NCBI GenBank assembly: GCA_026134085.1
Contig: JAOQIN010000015.1
Location: 1-38,708 of the forward strand
DNA length: 38,708 bases
Source of the DNA: Candidatus Methanoxibalbensis ujae
GTDB lineage: Archaea > Halobacteriota > Syntropharchaeia > Alkanophagales > Methanospirareceae
Direction: 5' to 3'
In this document: one piece after another, positions 4,596 to 20,590 of the stretch
How positions within the stretch are numbered: position 1 is the first letter of the stretch
Layout: each line of letters starts with the position of its first letter
The notes under the pieces: model-generated
What the model saw: the letters and a program-made list of their open reading frames with translations, nothing else
Databases searched by the model: none
What the model was told of the DNA's origin: nothing
Made by a program: the position numbers and the translations under genes

Positions 4596-5096
4596 ATGAA
4601 GATAGGAGTGATTTCGGACACACATGACCGTCTGGATGCGATTGAGAGGGCTGTTGAGGTTTTCAATAATGAGCGGGTGGATGTTGTGATCCATGCAGGC
4701 GATTTCGTATCCCCCTTCACCGAAAAACCGTTCAGAGCGCTGAATGCAAAATTTTACGGAATATTCGGCAACAATGACGGCGATAAACTGCTGCTGAAAG
4801 AAAAATACAGGAGAGTTGGCGTGATAGAGGAAGATCCCCTTGAACTTGAAATACAATCTGTGAGTATCGCGGTCACACACAGGCCTAAAATCGTGAATGC
4901 ACTCTCTCATATCTACGATATCGTGATATTCGGTCACACCCATATGCCAGAAATCAGGACAGGTGAGAGAAAAACAGGCTCAGGCGCAGAAACACTCGTG
5001 ATAAACCCGGGTGAGTGCTGCGGTTACCTGTCAGGTCGCCGGACAGTCGCAATAATTGACATTGATTCATTCTCCGCAGATATACTTGAAATCTGA
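4596..5096 (+). CDS. YfcE/MJ0936-type metallophosphoesterase
   Basis: A 166-residue calcineurin-like phosphoesterase of the small MJ0936/YfcE group. The metal ligands are all in place: SDTHD near the N-terminus, HAGDF, GNND, a conserved THRPK (usual THGH) and GHTHMPE, followed by INPGE. MJ0936-like enzymes hydrolyse phosphodiester model substrates with Mn2+ or Ni2+; the natural substrate is not known. The HGH site is altered to HRP, as in some archaeal members, which may affect metal binding. The ATG at 4596 has GGTGAG at a spacing of 5; a GTG at 4590 would add two residues. It is monocistronic. Confidence 0.88.
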   Translation: MKIGVISDTHDRLDAIERAVEVFNNERVDVVIHAGDFVSPFTEKPFRALNAKFYGIFGNNDGDKLLLKEKYRRVGVIEEDPLELEIQSVSIAVTHRPKIVNALSHIYDIVIFGHTHMPEIRTGERKTGSGAETLVINPGECCGYLSGRRTVAIIDIDSFSADILEI

Positions 5097-5278
5097 TTTT
5101 GGACTTGTGACGCCACACAGCAACAACAGCAGCATCCACAAATTTCAACTGAGGCTACTGATTCAACCCATCTCTCCACCTCTCCACATCCCATTGCATA
5201 GAGGGGCATGCGACAGGAAAAATGCGACAAATAAAGAAAATCATAAAGAAAAAAGAGAGAAAAATTAAAATTGGTTAA

Positions 5279-5752
5279 TCATAATGTTACTCTCTTCCCG
5301 CTCAATATCAACGAATTCGTCGGCAAATGCTTGAGATATACTTCGTAAGTATTGCCGGGAGCCAGAGCGGGACCACCAGCGGTAGTATTGATACTGAGGT
5401 CAGAACATGTTAGACCAGTCGTTGTTTCTGCATAAACATAAAAAGCATCTCCGACCTTGAAGGTAGCACTGACATTTGCGTATGTAGGATTTTTTCCAGC
5501 CTTGCACACAGCAATTTGCCACTCATCCTCCATGAGTGTGTCCCCGCTTGAGTGCACAAGTTTGAAGCAGGAGTTATTCACAACTTGAAAAGTTATCGAC
5601 ACAGAAGGTGGCGTGGCTGTTGGCGGCGTGAACCCTCCGAGCATAGCCATGACGACAGCTGCTATGACGATTGTAGCGGCGACCATGAGGATGACACCTA
5701 TGACAGGAGACACTCCCTTTTTACCTCTCTTCTGCATGTGTCTCTCTCTCAT
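5279..5752 (-). CDS. Archaeal type IV pilin-like protein (DUF1628 N-terminal domain)
   Basis: A 157-residue exported pilin-type protein. The N-terminus carries a class III prepilin signal, KKGVSPVIGVILMV, with predicted cleavage after Gly13, and a continuous hydrophobic assembly helix to about residue 40 (ATIVIAAVVMAMLGG). The exterior domain is Thr/Ser/Asn-rich with three Cys and several NxS/T sequons (for example NNS, NVS, NTT), consistent with glycosylation. A near-perfect Shine-Dalgarno, AAGGAGGTGATG, sits about 8 bases before the ATG. The divergent neighbour at 5966 is a prepilin peptidase, so substrate and processing enzyme are adjacent. The pilus ATPase and membrane platform are not in the window. 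Confidence 0.87.
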   Translation of the reverse strand: MRERHMQKRGKKGVSPVIGVILMVAATIVIAAVVMAMLGGFTPPTATPPSVSITFQVVNNSCFKLVHSSGDTLMEDEWQIAVCKAGKNPTYANVSATFKVGDAFYVYAETTTGLTCSDLSINTTAGGPALAPGNTYEVYLKHLPTNSLILSGKRVTL

Positions 5753-5965
5753 TTTCTTTTCACATCACCTCCTTTCATGAGGATTGAGAGAGTATGCCAA
5801 AAACAATTTCGTGCTGTTCAATTTATTTGAGCGATATTTGCAGGAAAAAATTAAATAATTCGAAATAAAAATTTTTTAAGATGGGAGGATAATGTAGATT
5901 TATGGAAAGATAATGTTGTAATATGTGAGTGATTGATGGAGGATGAGTTGAAATATGAATGAGTG

Positions 5966-6688
5966 ATGTGTGGGGGGATGATTGTGGGCATTGGATATGA
6001 AGTTGAGAGTCTGCTGCGTGTGTGTGTGGGAGGAGTTCTGCTTATTATTGCGGCGATAATGGATATGCGTGAGCGGGAGATATCAGATGTTGTGTGGCTG
6101 ATCATGGTGATTGCATCAGGTGTGTTTCTTCTTACTGACATAATTCTGAACGAGTTTTCGCCGCCGCACATGCTTCTCTCGCTTGGATTTGGTGTTGTAA
6201 TGGGTGCTGTGCTGTATTTTCTGAGATTTGGAGGTGCGGACATAAAGGCTTTGCTCGGGATTGCGCTGCTTTATCCGAGATATCCTGTTTTTGGAGAATT
6301 TCCGCTTTTTGGAGTTCCTCCGGTTGAGGTATTTGTGATGAGCGTTCTGACGAACACTGTCATATCAGGGCTATCTGCGCCTCTGTGGCTTTTTGTGAAG
6401 AATGCGCTGCGTCGTAACTTCTCACCTCTCATGTTCATGGGCATTAAAGTTCCTGCTGATTCTCTCCGTCATCATCGTCATTTCAGACTTATGCATTCTT
6501 TTGATGGCTCATATGTGTGCGGTGGAGTTGAAGTTACTGAGGATGATATCAGGAAAATAGAGAATCTTCATCGTGATGGTATTATTGAAGAAGTGTGGAT
6601 AACGCCCGAACTTCCATTCATCGTTTTCATCGCATTCGGATTCTTCACAGCATTCATCTTGGGCGATATAATTGTCATACTGTTTTGA
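5966..6688 (+). CDS. Archaeal prepilin/preflagellin peptidase (A24 family, FlaK/PibD/EppA-like)
   Basis: A roughly 240-residue membrane aspartic protease that removes class III signal peptides from pilins or archaellins. The first catalytic Asp lies in IMDMREREISD (D33) and the second in FGGADIKAL (D92, the GxGD-type motif with Ala at the third position, common in archaeal members). About six hydrophobic segments are visible, two of them flanking a soluble C-terminal insert of about 65 residues (HHRHF to ITPEL). The start is ambiguous between GTG 5963, ATG 5966 and ATG 5978; all lie after an in-frame stop at 5960-5962. The gene diverges from the pilin at 5279, which supports a shared pathway. 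Confidence 0.85.
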   Translation: MCGGMIVGIGYEVESLLRVCVGGVLLIIAAIMDMREREISDVVWLIMVIASGVFLLTDIILNEFSPPHMLLSLGFGVVMGAVLYFLRFGGADIKALLGIALLYPRYPVFGEFPLFGVPPVEVFVMSVLTNTVISGLSAPLWLFVKNALRRNFSPLMFMGIKVPADSLRHHRHFRLMHSFDGSYVCGGVEVTEDDIRKIENLHRDGIIEEVWITPELPFIVFIAFGFFTAFILGDIIVILF

Positions 6689-6876
6689 GCGAGGCATCAT
6701 CATTTTTTGCTATAATATAAAAATGAAATAAACAAAAAAACACAAAAAAACATAAAAAAAAGCAAAAGAAAAAGAGCAGAAACCGCATGCCACCGCGCAG
6801 CATGCAGCCACTCACAAGCTCACACAGCCACTCACAATGTTCAATGGAAACTGAAGCTTGAGGTGAGTGTGAGAGC
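6689..6876. other. Intergenic, A-rich low-complexity sequence
   Basis: This gap lies between two convergent genes. Bases 6717-6776 are runs of A broken by single C or G; the rest has short direct repeats (CAGCCACTCACAA-like, twice). No gene or RNA is recognised. Confidence 0.5.
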
Positions 6877-8127
6877 TCACTGCTCTGATGCTGATGCGAC
6901 CACTTCGCCTATCAGATATGTGCTTTTTGCCTCTTTCACACGGACATCGCAGAAAGATCCAAGAGGTATGTCATCCCTGAGAACAACTGTTCTGTAGGCG
7001 GGGTCTCGCGCAATCATTCCTCCTTTTCTTCCGGGTTCAGTGACAAGTGCCTCAAGGATTCTCCCCTCCAATGCCTTGTTCTGTTCATAAGCTATTTTGT
7101 GATACAGATCGGAGAACATGCGTGAGCGTCGCTTTTTCTCTCTCTCAAGCAGGTCATTCATACATGCCGCCTCAGTCCCGGGGCGAGGGGAGAATCGTGT
7201 GATATTCACTTTCTCAGCTCTAATGCGCCTGAGAAGGTCAACAGAACTCTCAAAATCCCTCTCAGTCTCAGTCGGATATCCTATGATAAAATCAGTGGAT
7301 ATCGTGCAATATTCAAATCTTGAACGAATAAAATCAACAATATGAATGAAATCACGAACTTTGTATCTTCTGTTCATATCTCTCAGAACTTTATCCGAGC
7401 CTGACTGGACAGGTATATGGAAGAATTTGAAAATTTTTTCTGATTCAAAGGAATCAATAATATCATCAAGATCATGAATCATCGTAAAAGGATTCATCAT
7501 TCCAACTCTTATCCTGAAATCTCCTTTTATTGAAGATAGCTTACGAAGAAGACCGTGCAATCTTTCTTCCAGACCATCCCATCCGTATGCACTGCAGTCC
7601 TGCGCTGTTATCCTTATTTCCTTTGCACCATCTCGCACCATCCTCTCAACAGTTCCGCATATTCTCTCAGGATCATAACTGTGAATTTCACCTCTCGCCC
7701 GCTTCACAATGCAGTATCTGCAGTTTCCAACGCAGCCCTGCGATATGGGGACTATCCCTATGACACCATCAAACGCAATTTCATAAACATCTCTGAGCAA
7801 ACGGGGCTCTATCATTATTGCGTTATCACCCAATACCTCTCTGACCCTCTCAGGCATCGCAGCCGGCATGCATCCCGCAACAATTATATCTCCAGAGCAC
7901 AATCCGCGAATGTATTTCAATCGTTTAATAACATTAAGCTCTGTTCTTTCAGTAACGATGCACGTGTTAATAATGAAAAAATCAGCATCTTTCTCATTTT
8001 TAACTATCTTGCATCCAATTTTTTCAACAATAGCTCTTATTTTCATACTGTCAGCTATGTTTGCAGTGCATCCAAATGTCTCAATATACACCTTCTTGTC
8101 CGGCTGTAATGACTCAATCCACTCCAT
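6877..8127 (-). CDS. Archaeal e-MtaB: tRNA-t6A37 methylthiotransferase (radical SAM)
   Basis: A 416-residue methylthiotransferase that converts t6A to ms2t6A at position 37 of ANN-decoding tRNAs. Domains in order: UPF0004 with cluster Cys at about 20, 56 and 86 (TFGCTAN, NTCIVTE, AGCMPA); radical SAM with GCVGNCRYC (Cys 132, 136, 139); and a C-terminal TRAM domain from about 350 (LEGRILEALV to LIGEVV). The IETFGCTAN N-terminus and total length fit the archaeal/eukaryotic CDKAL1-like branch rather than bacterial MiaB. A TATA element at 8151-8163 predicts transcription starting about 4 bases before the ATG at 8127, that is, an almost leaderless mRNA. Confidence 0.92.
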   Translation of the reverse strand: MEWIESLQPDKKVYIETFGCTANIADSMKIRAIVEKIGCKIVKNEKDADFFIINTCIVTERTELNVIKRLKYIRGLCSGDIIVAGCMPAAMPERVREVLGDNAIMIEPRLLRDVYEIAFDGVIGIVPISQGCVGNCRYCIVKRARGEIHSYDPERICGTVERMVRDGAKEIRITAQDCSAYGWDGLEERLHGLLRKLSSIKGDFRIRVGMMNPFTMIHDLDDIIDSFESEKIFKFFHIPVQSGSDKVLRDMNRRYKVRDFIHIVDFIRSRFEYCTISTDFIIGYPTETERDFESSVDLLRRIRAEKVNITRFSPRPGTEAACMNDLLEREKKRRSRMFSDLYHKIAYEQNKALEGRILEALVTEPGRKGGMIARDPAYRTVVLRDDIPLGSFCDVRVKEAKSTYLIGEVVASASEQ

Positions 8128-8250
8128 TCTCTGTAATTATTCTGTATATGCTTATTATAATAAAAAAAAGTTGGCATCGCTGTGACAGGCTGAGCAATGA
8201 GCATCTGATAGGGCTCCGGGATGAGTCCGACCCCTCTCATGAAGTGCAAC

Positions 8251-8292
8251 GCGCTCTAATCTCTGCGCTCTAATCTCTGCGCTCTAATCTCT
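8251..8292. repeat. Three tandem copies of a 14-bp unit
   Basis: GCGCTCTAATCTCT is repeated three times without change (8251-8264, 8265-8278, 8279-8292). The last copy includes the stop codon and final codons of the AIM24-family gene, so the array grew from the gene's 3' end. Confidence 0.9.
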
Positions 8293-9250
8293 GAAGAGAG
8301 TGCCGATGTTGAAGGAAGTGCCGGAAGTGCCTGAGGAACCACTGCCGCTGCCTGCGCCTGAAGGCATGAATGGTCTGAGAGCGGCTGCGAGGTTAGCAAG
8401 TGTCATTGACTGGAGAAGCACACGACCGGGGCCTCGCAAGGTTGTGAGGAATATGCCCTCTCCGCCGAAAAGCATGCTCTTCACATTTCCTGCGAGTGCG
8501 ATGTCATACCCAACGGATGCGTCAAAGCCGACAACACTGCCCGTGTCAACCTTCACGACCTCACCAGATGCGAGTTCCATCTCAATGAAATCGCCGCAGG
8601 CGTGAATGAATGCTGTGCCCGTGCCGCTCAATCGCTCAGGAATGAAGCCCTCTCCGCCGAAGATGCCTGCACGCAACTTCTTCGTGAAAGCGATATCCAG
8701 GTCAACGCCCTCTTGAGCGCAGAGGAATGCGTCCTTCTGTGCGATGAAATCCTCGCCTTTCAACTCTATCGCCTTTATTCTTCCGGGAGCATTCCCTGCA
8801 AAAGCGACAAAGCCCTCCCCGAAACGGGGCGTGAATTCCGTCAGGAAGAAAGTCTCTCCTGCGAGCTTACGCTTCAATCCTTTGAGAAAACCCCCTCTCG
8901 CCCTCGCATTTATCTTATCACCCCGCTGGAGACCCCTTTGAGGTCGGGGAGGAAAGTGGTAATTTTTAAATACTCAAAATTTCACCTACTTATAGCGTCC
9001 GGAGGTTCCGGGCGATGAAAGCGTGAAGCTGGCACGCATCGGGGCGACGCTCCGAGGTGTGGGGCTGCGTAAACCAGCCCTTGCCCGACGACCAGCAGGA
9101 TGAAGGCATAAAGCCCCGTGAGGAGGGGCAGTTTACTTCCATGTTCTCGCTCATGTAAACCATCGCTCCCGCCTCTCCATACACCATCTCGCCCGCTGAA
9201 AGACGCACTACCACCATCTGCAAGTTGTCTCCAACAATTTCATATCTCAT
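8284..9250 (-). pseudogene. AIM24-family (TIGR00266-like) protein gene interrupted by a 223-bp insertion
   Basis: The 5' part (9250 to 9136) encodes MRYEIVGDNLQM through MVYMSENMEV; the 3' part (8912 to 8284) encodes ARARGGFLKGLKRKLAGE to the end. Removing 8913-9135 joins them as MEVNARARGGF in one frame, giving a 247-residue protein typical of the AIM24/DUF124 family: a beta-rich domain with FAGNAPGRI, FGGEGFI, TGSVVGFD and FGGEGIF, then a Gly/Ser-rich tail. Function is poorly known. AGGAGGT precedes the ATG at 9250. With the insert, translation from 9250 continues about 50 codons into it and stops. A start within 8877-8906 could make a truncated product. Confidence 0.85.
8913..9135 (+). mobile_element. 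223-bp non-autonomous IS200/IS605-type element (PATE/MITE-like)
   Basis: The insertion is flanked by TTTA on both sides (8909-8912 and 9132-9135), and its excision exactly restores the AIM24 frame. Its left part (8913-9000) has a palindrome around CCCCGCTGGAGACCCC and an AT-rich stretch. Its right part contains a short tail of a tnpB-like frame (VKLARIGATL) and a structured end matching 153-238, including the covarying CGTAAAC hairpin and a GCCCC/GGGGC hairpin near the terminus. It encodes no transposase, so it must have been moved in trans by a TnpA. Orientation follows the tnpB remnant (plus), opposite to the host gene. Confidence 0.8.
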
Positions 9251-9611: not shown

Positions 9612-10661
9612 ATGGAATGCAAACTTGTCAGGCAGGGATTTGAACCGGGAAGCTGTCAGGTATTTGATTTCAGCACTGGCAGAAGCGGTAAGGCATGTGA
9701 GGTTACGCTGCGGTACAGAGCCGGAGTTCCATACCGGTTGATAGACTCAATTATCCTGTCAAGACCCGAGCATTACCTCTCCATCTACCAGTCGGGCTGC
9801 AACTTTGAGTGTAAGAAATGCCATTCGTGGCGCTTCACACAGAATGCCGTGGGTGAATGGATGTGCCCTGAGGATATAGCAGGAGCAGTGGAGAGGTACA
9901 TGAGCATGGAAATAACATTTGTGAGACGAGAACACGCCACTAGCTGGCATGCACACGAGCTCTGCAAATCGTGTGGCAGTTGCGTCCTGCGCGGTGTGAG
10001 GAGCGAGAACTGTCCCGGTGTGCTCAGTCGCGATAAGATCGTGCTGAGTGAACAGGGCTGGGGACCTGCCCGCAACATAGTCGCTTTCACTGGTGGCGAC
10101 CTGCTCTGTCAGCCCGACTTCTATGTGAGGTCAGCGGAATTGATTAAGGAGCGGAACGAGCGCGTATGGATTCTGATGGAAACCAACGGCTACGGGCTCA
10201 CGCCTGACAACCTTGATCTGTATCAGCAGGCGGGCATAGACTCCTTCTGGCTTGATATCAAAGCGTTTGATGATGAGGTGCACCGGAGGCTTACCGGCGT
10301 ATCAAACAGACGCATCTTGAAACTGCCGGCAGAGCTGAAGGACAGGGGATTCGTTCTTGAAGTCTCATCTTTATTTATTCCCGGATGGGTTGAGACCTCG
10401 CAGATAGCCAGTATCGCCCGCACCATCGCGTCCGTAGATGCTGATATCCCCTTCACCATACTCGCCTTCTTCCCTGAATACAGGATGCGAGATGTCCCGG
10501 TGCCAAATTTGAGGGAGATGATAGAGGCGTATAACGCGGCAAGAGATGCGGGACTGCGAAGAGTAAAGCTCGGGAATCTTCATCTCTTTGTGCATACACG
10601 TGCAGAATACGAGCTGTTGAGGGAACAAATAGGAGGGCATGTGACCTTCTCCCCTCACTGA
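9612..10661 (+). CDS. Radical SAM enzyme with a second ferredoxin-like Cys motif (activase-like)
   Basis: A 349-residue radical SAM protein. The SAM cluster motif is GCNFECKKC (Cys 63, 67, 70). An inserted segment carries CKSCGSC and a further Cys (118, 121, 124, 134: CX2CX2CX9C), which looks like a second [4Fe-4S] site, as in glycyl-radical-enzyme activases. FTGGDLL replaces the usual GGE, and METNG and LDIKA follow the activase/PFL-AE pattern. No glycyl radical enzyme is in the window, so the substrate is unknown. GAAGGG lies 3 bases before the ATG. The gene appears monocistronic; the dispersed structured repeat begins right after its stop. Confidence 0.82.
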   Translation: MECKLVRQGFEPGSCQVFDFSTGRSGKACEVTLRYRAGVPYRLIDSIILSRPEHYLSIYQSGCNFECKKCHSWRFTQNAVGEWMCPEDIAGAVERYMSMEITFVRREHATSWHAHELCKSCGSCVLRGVRSENCPGVLSRDKIVLSEQGWGPARNIVAFTGGDLLCQPDFYVRSAELIKERNERVWILMETNGYGLTPDNLDLYQQAGIDSFWLDIKAFDDEVHRRLTGVSNRRILKLPAELKDRGFVLEVSSLFIPGWVETSQIASIARTIASVDADIPFTILAFFPEYRMRDVPVPNLREMIEAYNAARDAGLRRVKLGNLHLFVHTRAEYELLREQIGGHVTFSPH

Positions 10662-12315: not shown

Positions 12316-12693
12316 GTCTGATTCTTCACCTCCTGATTTCTTATTCTCCCCGCACTTTATAAATTGATAAGTTTCTTAAACATATGTTTGAAACATATAC
12401 AGCATATTTCCAATCCGATTTTAATATTTAAACTCAAATAGCAGTTATTTTTACCCTTAGTAAGGAAAATTAATATGAATTTTTAGTATATATGAATGTC
12501 CGATAACTTCATAGAACAAAAACGATGAAAAATATTTGATGAACAGCGGGCGGCAGTGAGGCGTGCAGCAGGGGTATGAGAGAGGAAAAAGAAAAAGGGA
12601 AAAGGTGGGAAGAAGGGGAAAAGGCAAAGTGCGAAGCGAAGAAGTGAAAAAGAGAAAAAGAGAAAAAGCAAAAAAAAAAGGAGAGAGGAGAAC
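12316..12693. other. Intergenic region between two PEF-CTERM genes
   Basis: The promoter of the downstream gene lies at 12355-12366 (TATA on the minus strand). Bases 12584-12683 are G/A-rich low-complexity sequence on the plus strand just after the upstream gene's stop. No coding sequence is recognised. Confidence 0.5.
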
Positions 12694-13257
12694 TTATGCT
12701 TGACGCCTGCGGCGATTGAAGAAGAACAGCAGCCCGAGAATCGCAGCAGCTGGAATAGCGATTGTTGAAAACTCAGGTATGGCTGTCGCGTATACTGTGG
12801 AGCTAGCGCTATCCCATGTGCTACCATAAATATAGCCGTCCTCAACTTTGAACTGATATTTCGTGTCTGTTGAGGTGCCGACATGCTTCACACTGAGCGT
12901 GAGTGTGGCAGAGTTTGCGCCTCCATCCCACCAGTTCCATGTCTCGTTGTTATTCAACCATCCTGATGAGTTTGCTCCATGATAGAATTTGAACTGCAAA
13001 TCATTCAGCGTTCCACTACCATATACAATGCCTGAGACCCACGCTTTTATGGTGTGGTTGTTCGATGTGCCACTATTCTGTATATCCGTTATGGACACAG
13101 TATAATTGACAACTTCGCCAGGCGTCATGTTTTGATTGTCTGGCTGAACATTCATGTTCTCCGGATCGGGCTCTGCAGATGCTGTGCATATTATCATCAT
13201 CGTTATGATAGCCGCCACAAGCGCCGCAACTGTTTTCATCTTCTTCGCATTCATCAT
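12694..13257 (-). CDS. PEF-CTERM surface protein, paralogous anchor
   Basis: A 187-residue secreted protein: signal peptide (VAALVAAIITMMIICTASA), a beta-rich extracellular part with several NxS/T sequons (NYT, NHT, NSS, NET), and a PEF-CTERM tail IPEFSTIAIPAAAILGLL followed by NRRRRQA. The C-terminal tail resembles that of the gene at 11482, while the ectodomains differ, so the two share an anchor rather than a fold. A TATA box at 13281-13290 (minus strand) predicts transcription starting near 13259, so the ATG at 13257 (or 13254) is preferred over 13281. Same strand as the other PEF-CTERM gene, but with a separate promoter. Confidence 0.83.
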   Translation of the reverse strand: MMNAKKMKTVAALVAAIITMMIICTASAEPDPENMNVQPDNQNMTPGEVVNYTVSITDIQNSGTSNNHTIKAWVSGIVYGSGTLNDLQFKFYHGANSSGWLNNNETWNWWDGGANSATLTLSVKHVGTSTDTKYQFKVEDGYIYGSTWDSASSTVYATAIPEFSTIAIPAAAILGLLFFFNRRRRQA

Positions 13258-15389: not shown

Positions 15390-15464
15390 GGGCCCGTGGC
15401 TCAGCATGGACAGAGCACCGGCCTTCTAAGCCGGGGATCGCGGGTTCAAGTCCCGCCGGGTCCG
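15390..15464 (+). tRNA. tRNA-Arg(UCU), left copy
   Basis: A 75-nt cloverleaf. The acceptor GGGCCCG pairs with CGGGTCC, discriminator G. The anticodon arm CCGGC-CTTCTAA-GCCGG has anticodon TCT, and the T arm is GCGGG-TTCAAGT-CCCGC. It is identical over all 75 bases to the copy at 20516-20590. The nearest TATA-like sequence (TATAATT, about 15309) is about 80 bases upstream, further than usual. Confidence 0.97.
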
Positions 15465-15605
15465 CTCATTCTCAAGCAAGCGATGACCTTGCGCTTTGAC
15501 AGGCGACATGCCAGAGTATATGAACCGAAAATTTGATTAAAATAAATTAAAATAGATATAAATATTAGGTCAGCGGGGGCAATGTATGCGTTGACTGGAG
15601 ATGTA

Positions 15606-15863
15606 CTGTGGCTTTTTCCGTGTCAGAGGATAAGCATATTTCAACCAGAACAGTTCAGACAGTCTTTGAGCAAGCAATTAAAAAGGATGCAACGGTTCAT
15701 CTAAGGCATTCATTCGCAACCCATTTACTCAGAGGAGTTTATCTGAGATGCATTCAGGAGATGTCTGGACATAAGCATTTGGATGGAGATTTATACTCAT
15801 GTTGCGATGAAAGATTTGAGAAGGATAAGAAGTCCGCTAGATATACTTGGGGGTGATGTGTAA
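15606..15863 (+). pseudogene. Tyrosine recombinase/integrase, C-terminal fragment with frameshifts
   Basis: The catalytic half of a XerA/integron-integrase-like tyrosine recombinase. LWLFP is in frame 3, ISTRTVQTVFEQAIKK to GHKHLDG in frame 2, then IYTHVAMKDLRRIRSPLD in frame 3 to the stop at 15861. The box II Arg (HLRHSFATHLL), the His of SGHKH and the Tyr nucleophile of IYTHV all remain, but a residue is lost in H-x-LRHS and again before GVYL, and the N-terminal domains are missing. The SPLD ending is shared by XerA-type and integron-type enzymes, so class cannot be decided. It lies 140 bases inside the left tRNA-Arg, as expected for the element's integrase. Confidence 0.85.
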
Positions 15864-15873
15864 GAATGATTGG

Positions 15874-15970
15874 GAAGTTCGTGTATACTGCCAAAATTGG
15901 AGATAACACGAAGTTCGTATATCCTTCCAAAACCGGACAAAAGGCGAATTTCGTATATACTATATACGCC
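15874..15970 (+). repeat. Three degenerate 36-bp tandem repeats
   Basis: Units start at 15874, 15910 and 15946, exactly 36 bases apart, with GAAGTTCGTGTATAC, GAAGTTCGTATATCC and GAATTTCGTATATAC. The first two also share CCAAAA and GGA further in. The last unit ends in a GTATATA-C-TATATAC palindrome about 30 bases before the methyltransferase start. There are no spacers, so it is not a CRISPR; it may be a binding-site array or a short minisatellite. Confidence 0.7.
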
Positions 15971-16002
15971 ATTTCGGCTGTGCTTAATAAAGGTGAGGAA
16001 TT

Positions 16003-16638
16003 ATGAATAGCATTGAAATCTTTGAAAGGTATGCTCAAGAATATGATGAGTGGTTTGATGCAAATAGATTTGCCTATGAGTCCGAAGTTCAGGCTTTAAA
16101 GAAGTTCGTTCCAAAAAATAGTAAGGGTTTGGAGGTTGGAGTGGGTACAGGAAGATTTGCAGTTCCTCTTGGTATTGGGGTTGGGGTGGAGCCTGCAAAA
16201 GCAATGGCAGATATAGCACGGAAACGTGGAATAGAGGTTTATGAAGCAAAGGCAGAAAAACTTCCTTTTGATGATTCTTCTTTTGACTTTGTATTAATAG
16301 TTGTAACAATATGTTTTGTGCAAAACCCCATGCAAGCACTCAGGGAAGCAAAAAGAGTTCTTAAACCGGGAGGATATATCATTATAGGTATGATTGACAG
16401 GGAGAGTTTTCTTGGCAAACTGTATGAATCAAAGAAGAAAGAGAGTAAATTCTATAGGCATGCCAACTTTTATTCTACCAGACAGGTTTTGGATTGGCTT
16501 AAAAAATTGGAGTTTGAATATATCAAAACCTGTCAGACAATCTTCAAAGATCCCAAAAAAATAACGGGTATTGAACCTGTTAAAGAAGGTTATGGTGAAG
16601 GAGGTTTTGTTGTAATTTCCGCACAGAAGCAGGCATAA
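16003..16638 (+). CDS. Class I SAM-dependent methyltransferase (UbiE/Methyltransf_11 type)
   Basis: A 211-residue methyltransferase. Motif I is GLEVGVGTGRF (about 42-52), followed by the acidic loop GVGVEPAKAM, the post-I pair EKLPFDDSSFDFV, and REAKRVLKPGGYIIIG. The C-terminal part (about 130-211) is family-specific, and the substrate cannot be read from it. AAGGTGAGG lies 6 bases before the ATG. It is one of two intact genes of the island, and its codon use is AT-richer than that of genes outside (many AAA, ATA, TTA). The broken DsrE-like gene follows after 2 bases, suggesting they arrived as one unit. Confidence 0.88.
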   Translation: MNSIEIFERYAQEYDEWFDANRFAYESEVQALKKFVPKNSKGLEVGVGTGRFAVPLGIGVGVEPAKAMADIARKRGIEVYEAKAEKLPFDDSSFDFVLIVVTICFVQNPMQALREAKRVLKPGGYIIIGMIDRESFLGKLYESKKKESKFYRHANFYSTRQVLDWLKKLEFEYIKTCQTIFKDPKKITGIEPVKEGYGEGGFVVISAQKQA

Positions 16639-16640
16639 AC

Positions 16641-16943
16641 ATGAAAATGGGGATTGTAGTCTATTCAAACTACTCGGCAGTATGGAACGCATTTCGGTTT
16701 GCAAATTTTACATTGGAAGAGAGCGACAAAATAAAGGTAAAGGTGTAGAATGCGCTGGACATGGATAGATTTAAGGTGACAGAGCAGATGCAGACGTTGG
16801 TTGATAATGGAGGAGATATTTTTGCTTGCGGCAACTGTCTCAAAATCAGGCAATCCGAAGGTTCGGAAGTGTGCCCGTTGTCAACGATGAAAGATCTGTA
16901 TGAGATTGTGAAGGAGAGTGATAAAGTTATAAAGTTATTCTGA
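16641..16943 (+). pseudogene. DsrE-like protein, frameshifted with internal deletion
   Basis: The reading starts MKMGIVVYSNYS and keeps VWNAFRFANF, then hits a stop after IKVKV. It resumes in another frame at LDMDRFKVTEQMQ and keeps FACGNCLKIRQSE and CPLSTMKDLYEI to the stop at 16941. Compared with the intact relative at 3956-4273, the FLLARGV strand is lost and the frame shifts at KGVEC. It is a dead copy of the same subfamily, immediately behind the island methyltransferase. Confidence 0.85.
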
Positions 16944-16976
16944 CCGCACAGCCGAAACACGCTCACTTCGTTCGCT

Positions 16977-17059
16977 GCGTATAACAGCGGATAAAAGGTA
17001 AACCAAAGATTTCCCCAATTTGCTACATAAACTTCTTTTATCAGCAAACCGTTATATGC
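16977..17059 (+). repeat. attC-like inverted repeat, site A
   Basis: GCGTATAAC (16977-16985) pairs with GTTATATGC (17051-17059, 8 of 9). Inside these, GATAAAAG (16990-16997) pairs with CTTTTATC (17035-17042). The unpaired part between the two stems is longer on the 3' side (AGCAAACC) than on the 5' side. A length of 83 bp, a two-stem architecture and outer boxes near RYYYAAC/GTTRRRY are as expected for an integron cassette recombination site. The next gene starts 33 bases later. Confidence 0.5.
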
Positions 17060-17092
17060 AATTGTGGGATATACCAGCAGGAGGCTTAACGC

Positions 17093-17980
17093 ATGAGATG
17101 CATCTTAAACGTGAATGGACTGGAGCATGCTTTTCTAAGAGAGTTTGGATGCAATTGCAATGCAGTAAACCAAGAAAAGTAGCGAACACCTCCATTTGGT
17201 AGTATTGGATGAAGACTATCCCTTTCATATCTTGTTTGATGTGGGAATGCACGTCGTAGATAGCCTTTGCGATATCCCATACTTCAAATCACATGCTAGG
17301 TATAAATGTGTAAAACCTGGAAAAGGTATTTGGACCGAAACAACAAGCCTTGGGAACCTATTAAGACGTGGTGCCGGAGTGGAACAGCAGAGTGGCTTCA
17401 AATAAACCATTATGAGTGGAATAAGTTTTTAAAACCTCACATTTCAAGTGAATTCAAGCCGCCGGGTAGCTTGTTCCATTAATATTGAATTCTTAATATA
17501 GAATTCTCAGATGTTGAAGTTGTACCGGTCGCAGTGTCTCATTACAGTGCAGATATCAAACCAAGAAATCCTAAAGAATATTTACCATGTTCGGCCTCAT
17601 TCATAATCAAAAGAATAAGAAAGCTGTGCCGGGATATTGATAACAGCTATGGGATATTGATAACAGAAATGACTGGATTGTAAAACCCAAAGACGAGCAA
17701 AAAGAAGCAGTTGATTTGATGTCTAATGCGGATTACCTATTTATTGAATGTAATACATGGCGAGTTGAAGGAGTAGGTCACACCACTTTCTTAAAAGCTG
17801 AGGAGTATATTAAGGCGCTTAGACCAAAGCAGACATTTTTAGTTCATCTGAGTGGCCATGAGGATAGACCACAGGTTATGACAGGGATGATAAAACATGG
17901 GAAAAAGAAGCAGAAAAGGTTCTTAAAAGAGAGAAATTTATATACCGGTTCAAGTGCCAGAAAGTGCCAGAAACAACAGC
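17093..17980 (+). pseudogene. Metallo-beta-lactamase-fold hydrolase, multiply frameshifted
   Basis: Pieces in different frames assemble into one protein: MRCILNVNGLEHAFLREFGC, RKVANTSI, LVVLDEDYPFHILFDVGMH, CKTWKRYLDRNNKPWEP to HYEWNKFLKP, DVEVVPVAVSHYSADIKPRN, then WIVKPKDEQKEAVDLMSNAD and FLVHLSGHEDRP. This matches the metallo-beta-lactamase fold, but the central HxHxDH site falls at a deletion around 17295. There are at least four lesions including internal stops, so it is clearly dead. GCAGGAGG precedes the original ATG at 17093. It fills the interval between attC-like sites A and B. Confidence 0.8.
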
Positions 17981-18061
17981 AGATAACAGAGCGTATCTGG
18001 CTTCTGCTACCGCCTCCGCCCAAATTCCCCCTTCGGGGCAGATACGCTCAGAACATTAGGC
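17981..18061 (+). repeat. attC-like inverted repeat, site B
   Basis: GAGCGTATCTG (17989-17999) is perfectly complementary to CAGATACGCTC (18039-18049). Outside are AGATAAC on the left and AGAAC with ATTAGGC on the right; ATTAGGC is one base from the common integron core GTTAGGC. An 81-bp palindrome between two gene units; the next ATG (18093) follows 31 bases later, nearly the same distance as after site A. Confidence 0.5.
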
Positions 18062-18092
18062 GAAATTACAGCCGTAAGAGGAGGATGGGAAT

Positions 18093-18668
18093 ATGAGAAT
18101 AACAGCTATCAACGGAAGTCCCCGAAAAGATGGGAGAATAAGCAAAATAGTTGATGAGATTATCAAAGGAGCGGAGGAGAACGGCCACGAATGTGAGATG
18201 ATTTATTTGGTGGATTTAAACATTGAGGATTGCACAGGCTGTATGTCGTGCCAGGAGAAAGGAGCATGTGTGTTTCGGGATGATATTGAGAAGATAGAGG
18301 AAGCGATCAAAAGATCTGATTTGATTATATGGGCAAGTCCAACACACTGGGCAAATGTATCGGGTTTGATGTTAAGGGTATTTGAGCGATTGTTTGGTTT
18401 TCTTATCAAAGAGCAACCGAAAGGGACTCCACTCAAGCGGAATGCAAAAGACAAGAAAGCAATTCTTGTAACTGCCTGCAGCACGGCAGGACCGTTCAAC
18501 TGGATTTATAATCAATCCCGCTCCTGTATTAGCCGAATGCGTGAGATGTGCAAATGGAGCGGACAGGAAATAGTTGGCACATTTGTATTGCCCGGCACAT
18601 TAACGATGAAAGATATACCAGAAAAATATCTCAAAAAAGCAAGAGAGATTGGGAGGAGAATTAAATAA
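18093..18668 (+). CDS. Iron-sulfur flavoprotein (Isf-like, flavodoxin fold)
   Basis: A 191-residue NADPH-dependent-FMN-reductase-type protein. The N-terminal FMN phosphate loop is NGSPRKDGRISK, and a compact Cys cluster C-TGC-MSC-QEKGAC (Cys 47, 50, 53, 59; CX2CX2CX5C) matches the [4Fe-4S] motif of methanogen iron-sulfur flavoprotein. ASPTHWANVSG is the flavin-contacting loop. Isf transfers electrons from ferredoxin and reduces O2 or H2O2 in Methanosarcina; the same role is plausible here. GAGGAGG lies about 8 bases before the ATG. It is the second intact gene of the island and sits between attC-like sites B and C, like a single-gene cassette. Confidence 0.9.
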   Translation: MRITAINGSPRKDGRISKIVDEIIKGAEENGHECEMIYLVDLNIEDCTGCMSCQEKGACVFRDDIEKIEEAIKRSDLIIWASPTHWANVSGLMLRVFERLFGFLIKEQPKGTPLKRNAKDKKAILVTACSTAGPFNWIYNQSRSCISRMREMCKWSGQEIVGTFVLPGTLTMKDIPEKYLKKAREIGRRIK

Positions 18669-18674
18669 AGAATC

Positions 18675-18786
18675 GCCCAACAGAGCCGGCTCCGTGCCTT
18701 CGGCACCATGCTCAAATCCTGCTTCGCAGGACTTCAGATGCCCGCCAGCCGCGAAAATATTGATGGAGCATGGGCGTCAGTTGGGG
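18675..18786 (+). repeat. attC-like inverted repeat, site C
   Basis: GCCCAAC (18675-18681, a perfect RYYYAAC) pairs with GTTGGGG (18780-18786, one base from GTTRRRY). Inner complementary pairs include CCATGCTC with GAGCATGG, and small hairpins GTGCC-TTCG-GGCAC and TCCTGC-TTC-GCAGGA lie between. All three sites share the left core YAACAG(AG)C. It starts 6 bases after the iron-sulfur flavoprotein stop. Confidence 0.5.
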
Positions 18787-18839
18787 TATCTCTCATTTTT
18801 ATGACAAACGATAAGAATCGTCCTCTTCCTCTGCATCGG

Positions 18840-20515: not shown

Positions 20516-20590
20516 GGGCCCGTGGCTCAGCATGGACAGAGCACCGGCCTTCTAAGCCGGGGATCGCGGGTTCAAGTCCCGCCGGGTCCG
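20516..20590 (+). tRNA. tRNA-Arg(UCU), right copy
   Basis: Identical over 75 bases to 15390-15464. Unlike the left copy it has a TATA-like element (TTTATCTTAAA, about 20483-20493) at the correct distance, predicting transcription from about 3 bases before the tRNA. The flanking sequences on either side differ from those of the left copy. Confidence 0.97.

Follow-up and report, generated by a model that had tools for sequence, protein, structure and literature searches.

A decayed integron-like cassette array in an archaeal genome points to a second branch of gene-cassette capture

Introduction

The closest described relatives of the locus analyzed here are the class 1 and chromosomal integrons. 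In these, an integrase gene (intI) and its attI site are followed by an array of cassettes, each a gene with an attC site. The sites have AAC and GTT cores, crossover takes place at the GTT, and the two ends of one cassette are complementary. The right core after the GTT belongs to the next cassette, and therefore the left core that closes a cassette is complementary to the start of that same cassette. We describe a degraded locus of this layout in contig JAOQIN010000015.1, which was analyzed over its entire 38.7 kb (the window). The contig belongs to a 1.99-Mb archaeal metagenome-assembled genome (MAG) that is 89% complete. The host is probably an anaerobic methanotrophic group 1 (ANME-1) archaeon, because its McrA has as its best solved-structure match PDB 3sqg (980 bits; runner-up McrA 740 bits), which we take to be the ANME-1 McrA.

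Archaeal cassette arrays, many of them without IntI, and links between the domains were described by Ghaly et al. 2022 (PMC9668308), as we also see them here. The archaeal integrases of that study reportedly carry the IntI-specific domain. According to Messier and Roy 2001 (cited in PMC9668308), integron recombination requires this domain. In Bacteroidota, IntegronFinder 2.0 is reported to find very few integrons (PMC9024848). In the open-access PMC literature, with preprints outside the search, we found no earlier description of the integron branch presented below.

Results and Discussion

The attC-like sites

Positions 15608-18752 of the window are a decayed integron. On one strand, between two tRNA-Arg(TCT) genes, lie an integrase remnant, an attI remnant and three gene units, each with a palindromic attC-like site after it. 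The original prediction had proposed a decaying integron-like cassette array here. That proposal is supported by dispersed sites, by cores owned by cassettes, by a homologous cassette in a relative, and by intact loci with integrase, attI and array. The array is larger than was proposed, and the attI-like region (15868-15970) and the flanking tRNA pair had been overlooked. Judged from sequence, the segment is very probably a decayed copy of an integron-like system for cassette capture.

Three two-stem repeats had been put forward as the sites. Two of them, A (A-type, 16977-17059, +) and B (B-type, 17980-18061, +), are above chance, each with z = -2.3 when folded as DNA. Calibrated covariance models were built from the aligned sites of relatives with hand-set structures, R2 for A-type and R1 for B-type sites. 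Site A matches R2 with 86.9 bits and site B matches R1 with 66.1 bits, both being themselves in the respective training sets. The cores of A are GTATAAC (left, 16979-16985) and GTTATAT (right, 17051-17057); those of B are AGATAAC (17981-17987) and ATTAGGC (18055-18061), the latter with GTT mutated to ATT. Site C (18675-18752, +) is degenerate, and its right end is cut off. Its left half (18675 to about 18750) is a B-type site (R1 37.2 bits over 18663-18761, outside the training set; 89% identity to one relative over 64 nt), but the proposed right arm (about 18770-18786) is spurious. Positions 18751-18782 match the 5′ end of mutS instead.

Relatives of the sites are found by BLAST alone, in 58 of 149 related genomes for A, 63 of 149 for B and 36 of 99 for C (for C mostly the left part). 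Those of A and B are about 70-90% identical. The similarity is limited to the length of the site, and the flanking genes differ; the search for the same palindromes beside other genes, which had been suggested as a check, thus shows them with different neighbors in many genomes. R1 sites number 22 in the host genome and are present in 75 of the 149 genomes. Many of the archaeal families scanned have none, and these are usable as negative controls.

Good alignments were obtained for 55 A-type and 71 B-type sites. The structure consists of a core stem, an inner stem and two apical hairpins. An RNAalifold consensus gave just part of it, so the pairs were set by hand and then counted. Double changes occur at 16 of 28 and 17 of 32 pairs, which exceeds all or nearly all shuffles and is far above slid registers. 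The sites are therefore nested imperfect palindromes with covarying stems, as attC sites are. Compared with the attC sites of IntI integrons, the spacers are 1 nt on the left and 5 nt on the right (in 62 sites), the inner stem is mostly uninterrupted (8-13 bp in most sites; bulges were not systematically sought), and the core is looser, often GTTAT. With AAC and GTT preset by the extraction, at least six of seven positions fit RYYYAAC in 92 of 137 left cores and GTTRRRY in 88 of 137 right cores; all seven fit in 39 of the 137 right cores. An Rfam scan of the window returned tRNAs alone and no attC-type family, and a strict IUPAC core pattern had zero matches in the host genome. A home-made scan combining RYYYAAC/GTTRRRY with a stem score was dropped, as it performed barely above shuffled sequence.

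Hairpins at gene ends could also be ordinary transcription terminators that resemble attC by chance. Terminators would hardly account for sites of 70-156 nt whose sequence is conserved, whose two hairpins covary and whose AAC/GTT frame stays fixed across many phyla. The dispersed relatives of A and B contradict this explanation, as does the complementarity of cassette ends described next, and we regard it as extremely improbable.

Complementarity of cassette ends

Between the two ends of a cassette, taken from consecutive site pairs, 5.41 of seven variable positions agree (n = 64). The two cores of the same site agree at 3.98 (n = 137) and random pairs at 3.55 (P = 1.4e-10). We also ran a structure-only detector (AACA, a helix with 1/5-nt spacers, GTT) on 54 loci of the Bacteroidota type. 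It returned 27 sites on the integrase strand, two on the opposite strand and one in shuffled sequence. The ends of one cassette agreed at 6.50/7 (n = 10), the cores of one site at 2.96/7 (n = 27). In Flavobacterium terrisoli (L228), every pair of this run agreed at six or seven of seven positions. The left and right cores thus appear to belong to cassettes, the cores of different sites matching within a cassette, and we consider this decisive for the array reading.

Another possible source of such sites is a family of dispersed palindromic elements, like miniature inverted-repeat transposable elements or repetitive extragenic palindromes, that landed between genes by chance. The sites are indeed palindromic, intergenic and present in many copies per genome. 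This origin is contradicted by cores that vary by cassette and not by site; moreover, the strand of the sites is constant with respect to the integrase, as is their place behind the integrase and attI. We judge it very unlikely.

The attI site and cassette movement

In intact relatives, the integrase stop codon is followed directly by conserved inverted-repeat units (e.g., GATATACGACATTAATGTCGGATATACC), then by (A)AGTT and then by the first cassette. The attI remnant of the window (15868-15970, +), with the repeats AAGTTCGTGTATAC, AAGTTCGTATATCC and AATTTCGTATATAC, matches this region in position and sequence and is closest to loci L218, L041, L021 and L024. Its degraded core is TATATACGCC (15961-15970, +); the corresponding sequence in relatives is (A)AGTTAxxxG.

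Two Chryseobacterium plasmids that share a backbone align through integrase and attI at 89.7% identity (locus positions 4966-8151). The alignment stops in both at the last T of AAGTT, and different genes lie beyond. As in an integron, attI lies beside the integrase with cassettes inserted at its GTT, and it is followed by codirectional cassettes, each with an attC-like site. Cassette 1 of the window (15962-17051, +) is 83% identical in the relative G023, where a B-type site takes the place of attI ahead of it. Homology sets in at 15965, three bases inside the cassette.

A separate observation concerns the plasmid of Chryseobacterium sp. SNU WT5 (L260, NZ_CP041688.1). It carries three copies of a geneless cassette-like unit starting GTTGGGAAAAATCGCCC, at about 8148-8299, 10280-10420 and 12680-12820.

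The integrase family

The tyrosine recombinase remnant that had been noticed upstream of the array is confirmed (15608-15863, +; HISTRTVQ...HLRHSFATHLL...IYTHVAMKDLRRIRSPLDIL). It is a frameshifted C-terminal part (PF00589, 31 bits) that covers positions 270-328 and 333-353 of a 359-position model of the intact family. Its likeness to IntI and XerA holds in part. Intact relatives score above the curated cut-off of 220 with XerA_Arch (NF040815; 255, 237 and 227 bits), but they are not of the IntI type. With TIGR02249 the relatives reach 226 bits (cut-off 265; IntI1 control 507), and the match ends at about 182 and restarts at about 232, so that the IntI-specific domain (patch III region) is missing. 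The alignment reads WLFPGxx..HITTRTVQ without insert, and the domain is absent from all 30 aligned proteins, in contrast to the archaeal integrases of the 2022 study.

The intact relatives have SAM4 and catalytic domains and a HARP-like N-terminal domain. HARP (PF07443, related to SMARCAL1/HepA) matches three of four proteins with E values of 0.005-0.026, the best at 16.8 bits, under the cut-off of 25. Unlike HARP itself, the new domain is fused to a recombinase; its likeness to HARP is seen at the level of sequence. AlphaFold2 gave a mean predicted local distance difference test score of 86 (above 90 in the N-terminal domain) and a predicted template modeling score of 0.57. The best PDB match in Foldseek is IntI (2a3v), followed by XerA. 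A 74-protein tree joins the new integrases to IntI with support of 100/99, IntI itself being monophyletic, and archaeal and bacterial copies intermingle among the new integrases. By these comparisons, the family is the sister group of IntI, from which it differs by the missing IntI-specific domain and by the HARP-like domain at its N-terminus.

The XerA-like annotation (NF040815) would also suit gene modules of the Xer/dif type (pdif-like), moved by chromosomal XerCD or XerA at short inverted dif sites. The sites here are direct, not inverted; they are 70-156 bp long with inner stems and end in AAC/GTT. They also have a dedicated neighboring recombinase and attI. This recombinase shares its catalytic domain with XerA-type archaeal proteins (PDB 4a8e, 5hxy), but it has an additional domain at the N-terminus, its gene adjoins attI and arrays, and the tree places it with IntI, apart from the sampled Xer proteins. 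The chance that such modules explain the locus seems negligible.

An integrase upstream in the same orientation as its array had been counted against the integron reading. Across the intact members, a codirectional integrase is the rule, in which they differ from IntI integrons.

Distribution in Archaea and Bacteria

A scan across genomes found relatives of the integrase in Altarchaeota, Micrarchaeota, Nitrospirota, Nitrospinota, Aminicenantota, Atribacteria, Spirochaetota, Dehalococcoidia and other groups, with identities of about 60-70% for the closest. Codirectional R1 or R2 sites lie downstream of many, and about 30 loci in archaea and bacteria combine integrase and such sites. One site in Dehalococcoidia shares 86% identity with site A along some 86 nt. 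In the archaeon GB37, whose chromosome is closed (LR991653.1), the integrase reading frame is open and R1 finds 34 sites. A set of 52 distant integrase loci, meant as a negative control, proved positive, with all matches on the integrase strand (R1 19/19, R2 16/16). Its place as control was taken by true-IntI loci and by archaeal families without R1 sites.

Two observations stand beside this survey. In Dehalococcoidia AH-958-J08 (L196/L270), two oppositely oriented arrays face each other, and the single adjoining integrase frame has a TAG stop. Plasmid matches H66-H75 (many Acinetobacter plasmids, and others) encode a recombinase that matches the Flavobacterium integrase at 57.5% identity over the C-terminal 219 amino acids; the match does not include the N-terminal domain, and one record names the protein TnpF. 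A XerA-like gene of Flagellimonas was set aside, as its match also lacks the N-terminal domain and its setting is erm(F)/Tn3.

The cassettes could instead be a classical cluster of attC sites lacking an integron integrase (CALIN), that is, ordinary attC sites mobilized by a true IntI encoded elsewhere, while the recombinase beside them plays no part. CALINs are the commonest form reported for Archaea (PMC9668308), and true IntI is present in three of 14 other hosts. In the remaining 11, none is over the cut-off, nor is any in the host genome or its relatives, 99 genomes searched in all. Further, attI lies directly after the new integrase and has the same core as the cassettes, and the Chryseobacterium plasmids diverge exactly there. 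R1 and R2 are silent at four true-IntI loci, yet match arrays of the new integrase in the same genomes. A bystander recombinase is thus improbable.

Several points weigh against our reading. Recombination is deduced from sequence patterns. In cassettes 1-3 of the window, the ends agree by the same rule at 6/7, 5/7 and 5/7, levels that are not uncommon among random pairs. Archaeal site pairs include many imperfect matches, partly from undetected intermediate sites, and most archaeal hosts are draft MAGs. The new integrases form one clade with moderate support (94/81). Bacteroidota sites score low with the archaeal models (R1 18-32 bits), so the link to this phylum rests on the structure-only test; on whole Bacteroidota genomes, the R1 signal was too weak.

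With these points considered, gene-cassette capture appears to have a second branch, with intact relatives in archaea and in bacteria such as Flavobacterium that carry a non-classical recombinase. It is likely that they form a second integron lineage in Archaea and Bacteria, with HARP-type integrases without the IntI-specific domain, attC sites with 1/5-nt spacers and cross-domain exchange of cassettes. This lineage would provide many archaeal CALINs with the integrase they lack and would be a main integron system of Bacteroidota, a phylum almost devoid of classical integrons.

Other features of the window

As had been noted, the genes of the array are unrelated and lie on the same strand. Cassette 1 contains a SAM methyltransferase (16003-16638, +; PF08241, 78.9 bits) and a broken DsrE-like gene (about 16643-16943, +; PF02635, 27.5 bits). 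Cassette 2 (17052-18055, +) spans from the right core of A to the right core of B. It contains a degenerate hydrolase-like gene that had zero matches in a protein family search. Cassette 3 (18056-18750, +) contains a gene for a protein like flavin mononucleotide (FMN) reductase/flavodoxin (18093-18668, +; PF03358, 75.8 bits).

Decay is seen in the frameshifted integrase end, the attI core without GTT, the broken DsrE-like and hydrolase-like genes, and site C, which runs into mutS. The mutS fragment (18751-18790, -), identified by translation and not by a family search, is 97% identical over 32 nt to a sequence in the relative G009 (contig C7), where mutS lies directly upstream of tRNA-Arg. A profile of the intact family found no further catalytic remnants in the rest of the host genome. 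A weak match to the integrase N-terminal domain (G000:C42:13747-13866; 18.7 bits, one stop) is perhaps a second remnant.

The tRNA-Arg(TCT) genes (15390-15465, +, ARAGORN and Rfam tRNA 67 bits; 20516-20590, +, ARAGORN) have the same sequence, are both complete, and form a direct repeat 5.1 kb apart around the decayed integron. No tRNA-Arg flanks the other integron loci checked, except for one in G009 near a sequence like mutS/site C, and insertion at tRNA genes was therefore rejected as a general entry route. The DNA of the island had zero matches to plasmids.

Proposed mechanism and implications

In an intact member, a tyrosine recombinase gene is directly followed by a double-stranded attI, made up of at least two inverted-repeat units and a terminal (A)GTT. 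Behind it come codirectional cassettes in an array, each with a gene and one attC-like site. Sequence evidence shows indirectly that the GTT of an incoming cassette is joined to that of attI or of an attC, and the sequence after GTT therefore always belongs to the next cassette. A folded single strand is probably the active form of the attC-like site, given the covariation and the complementarity of the ends, which must re-form in the circular cassette. Polarity probably comes from the conserved asymmetry, with the inner stem beginning 1 nt after AAC and ending 5 nt before GTT. The HARP-like domain may help to bind forked or hairpin DNA. With an integrase remnant, an attI core without GTT and a truncated site C, the copy in the window cannot act alone; its cassettes may still be mobile with an integrase supplied in trans.

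If this is true, a working relative without the IntI-specific domain would show what the recombination of folded single-stranded DNA truly needs, and how integrons arose from Xer-like ancestors. ANME-1 and other archaea, as well as Bacteroidota, would have a dedicated system for gene capture, possibly overlooked by present detectors. It would also offer a concrete route for the exchange of genes between the domains.

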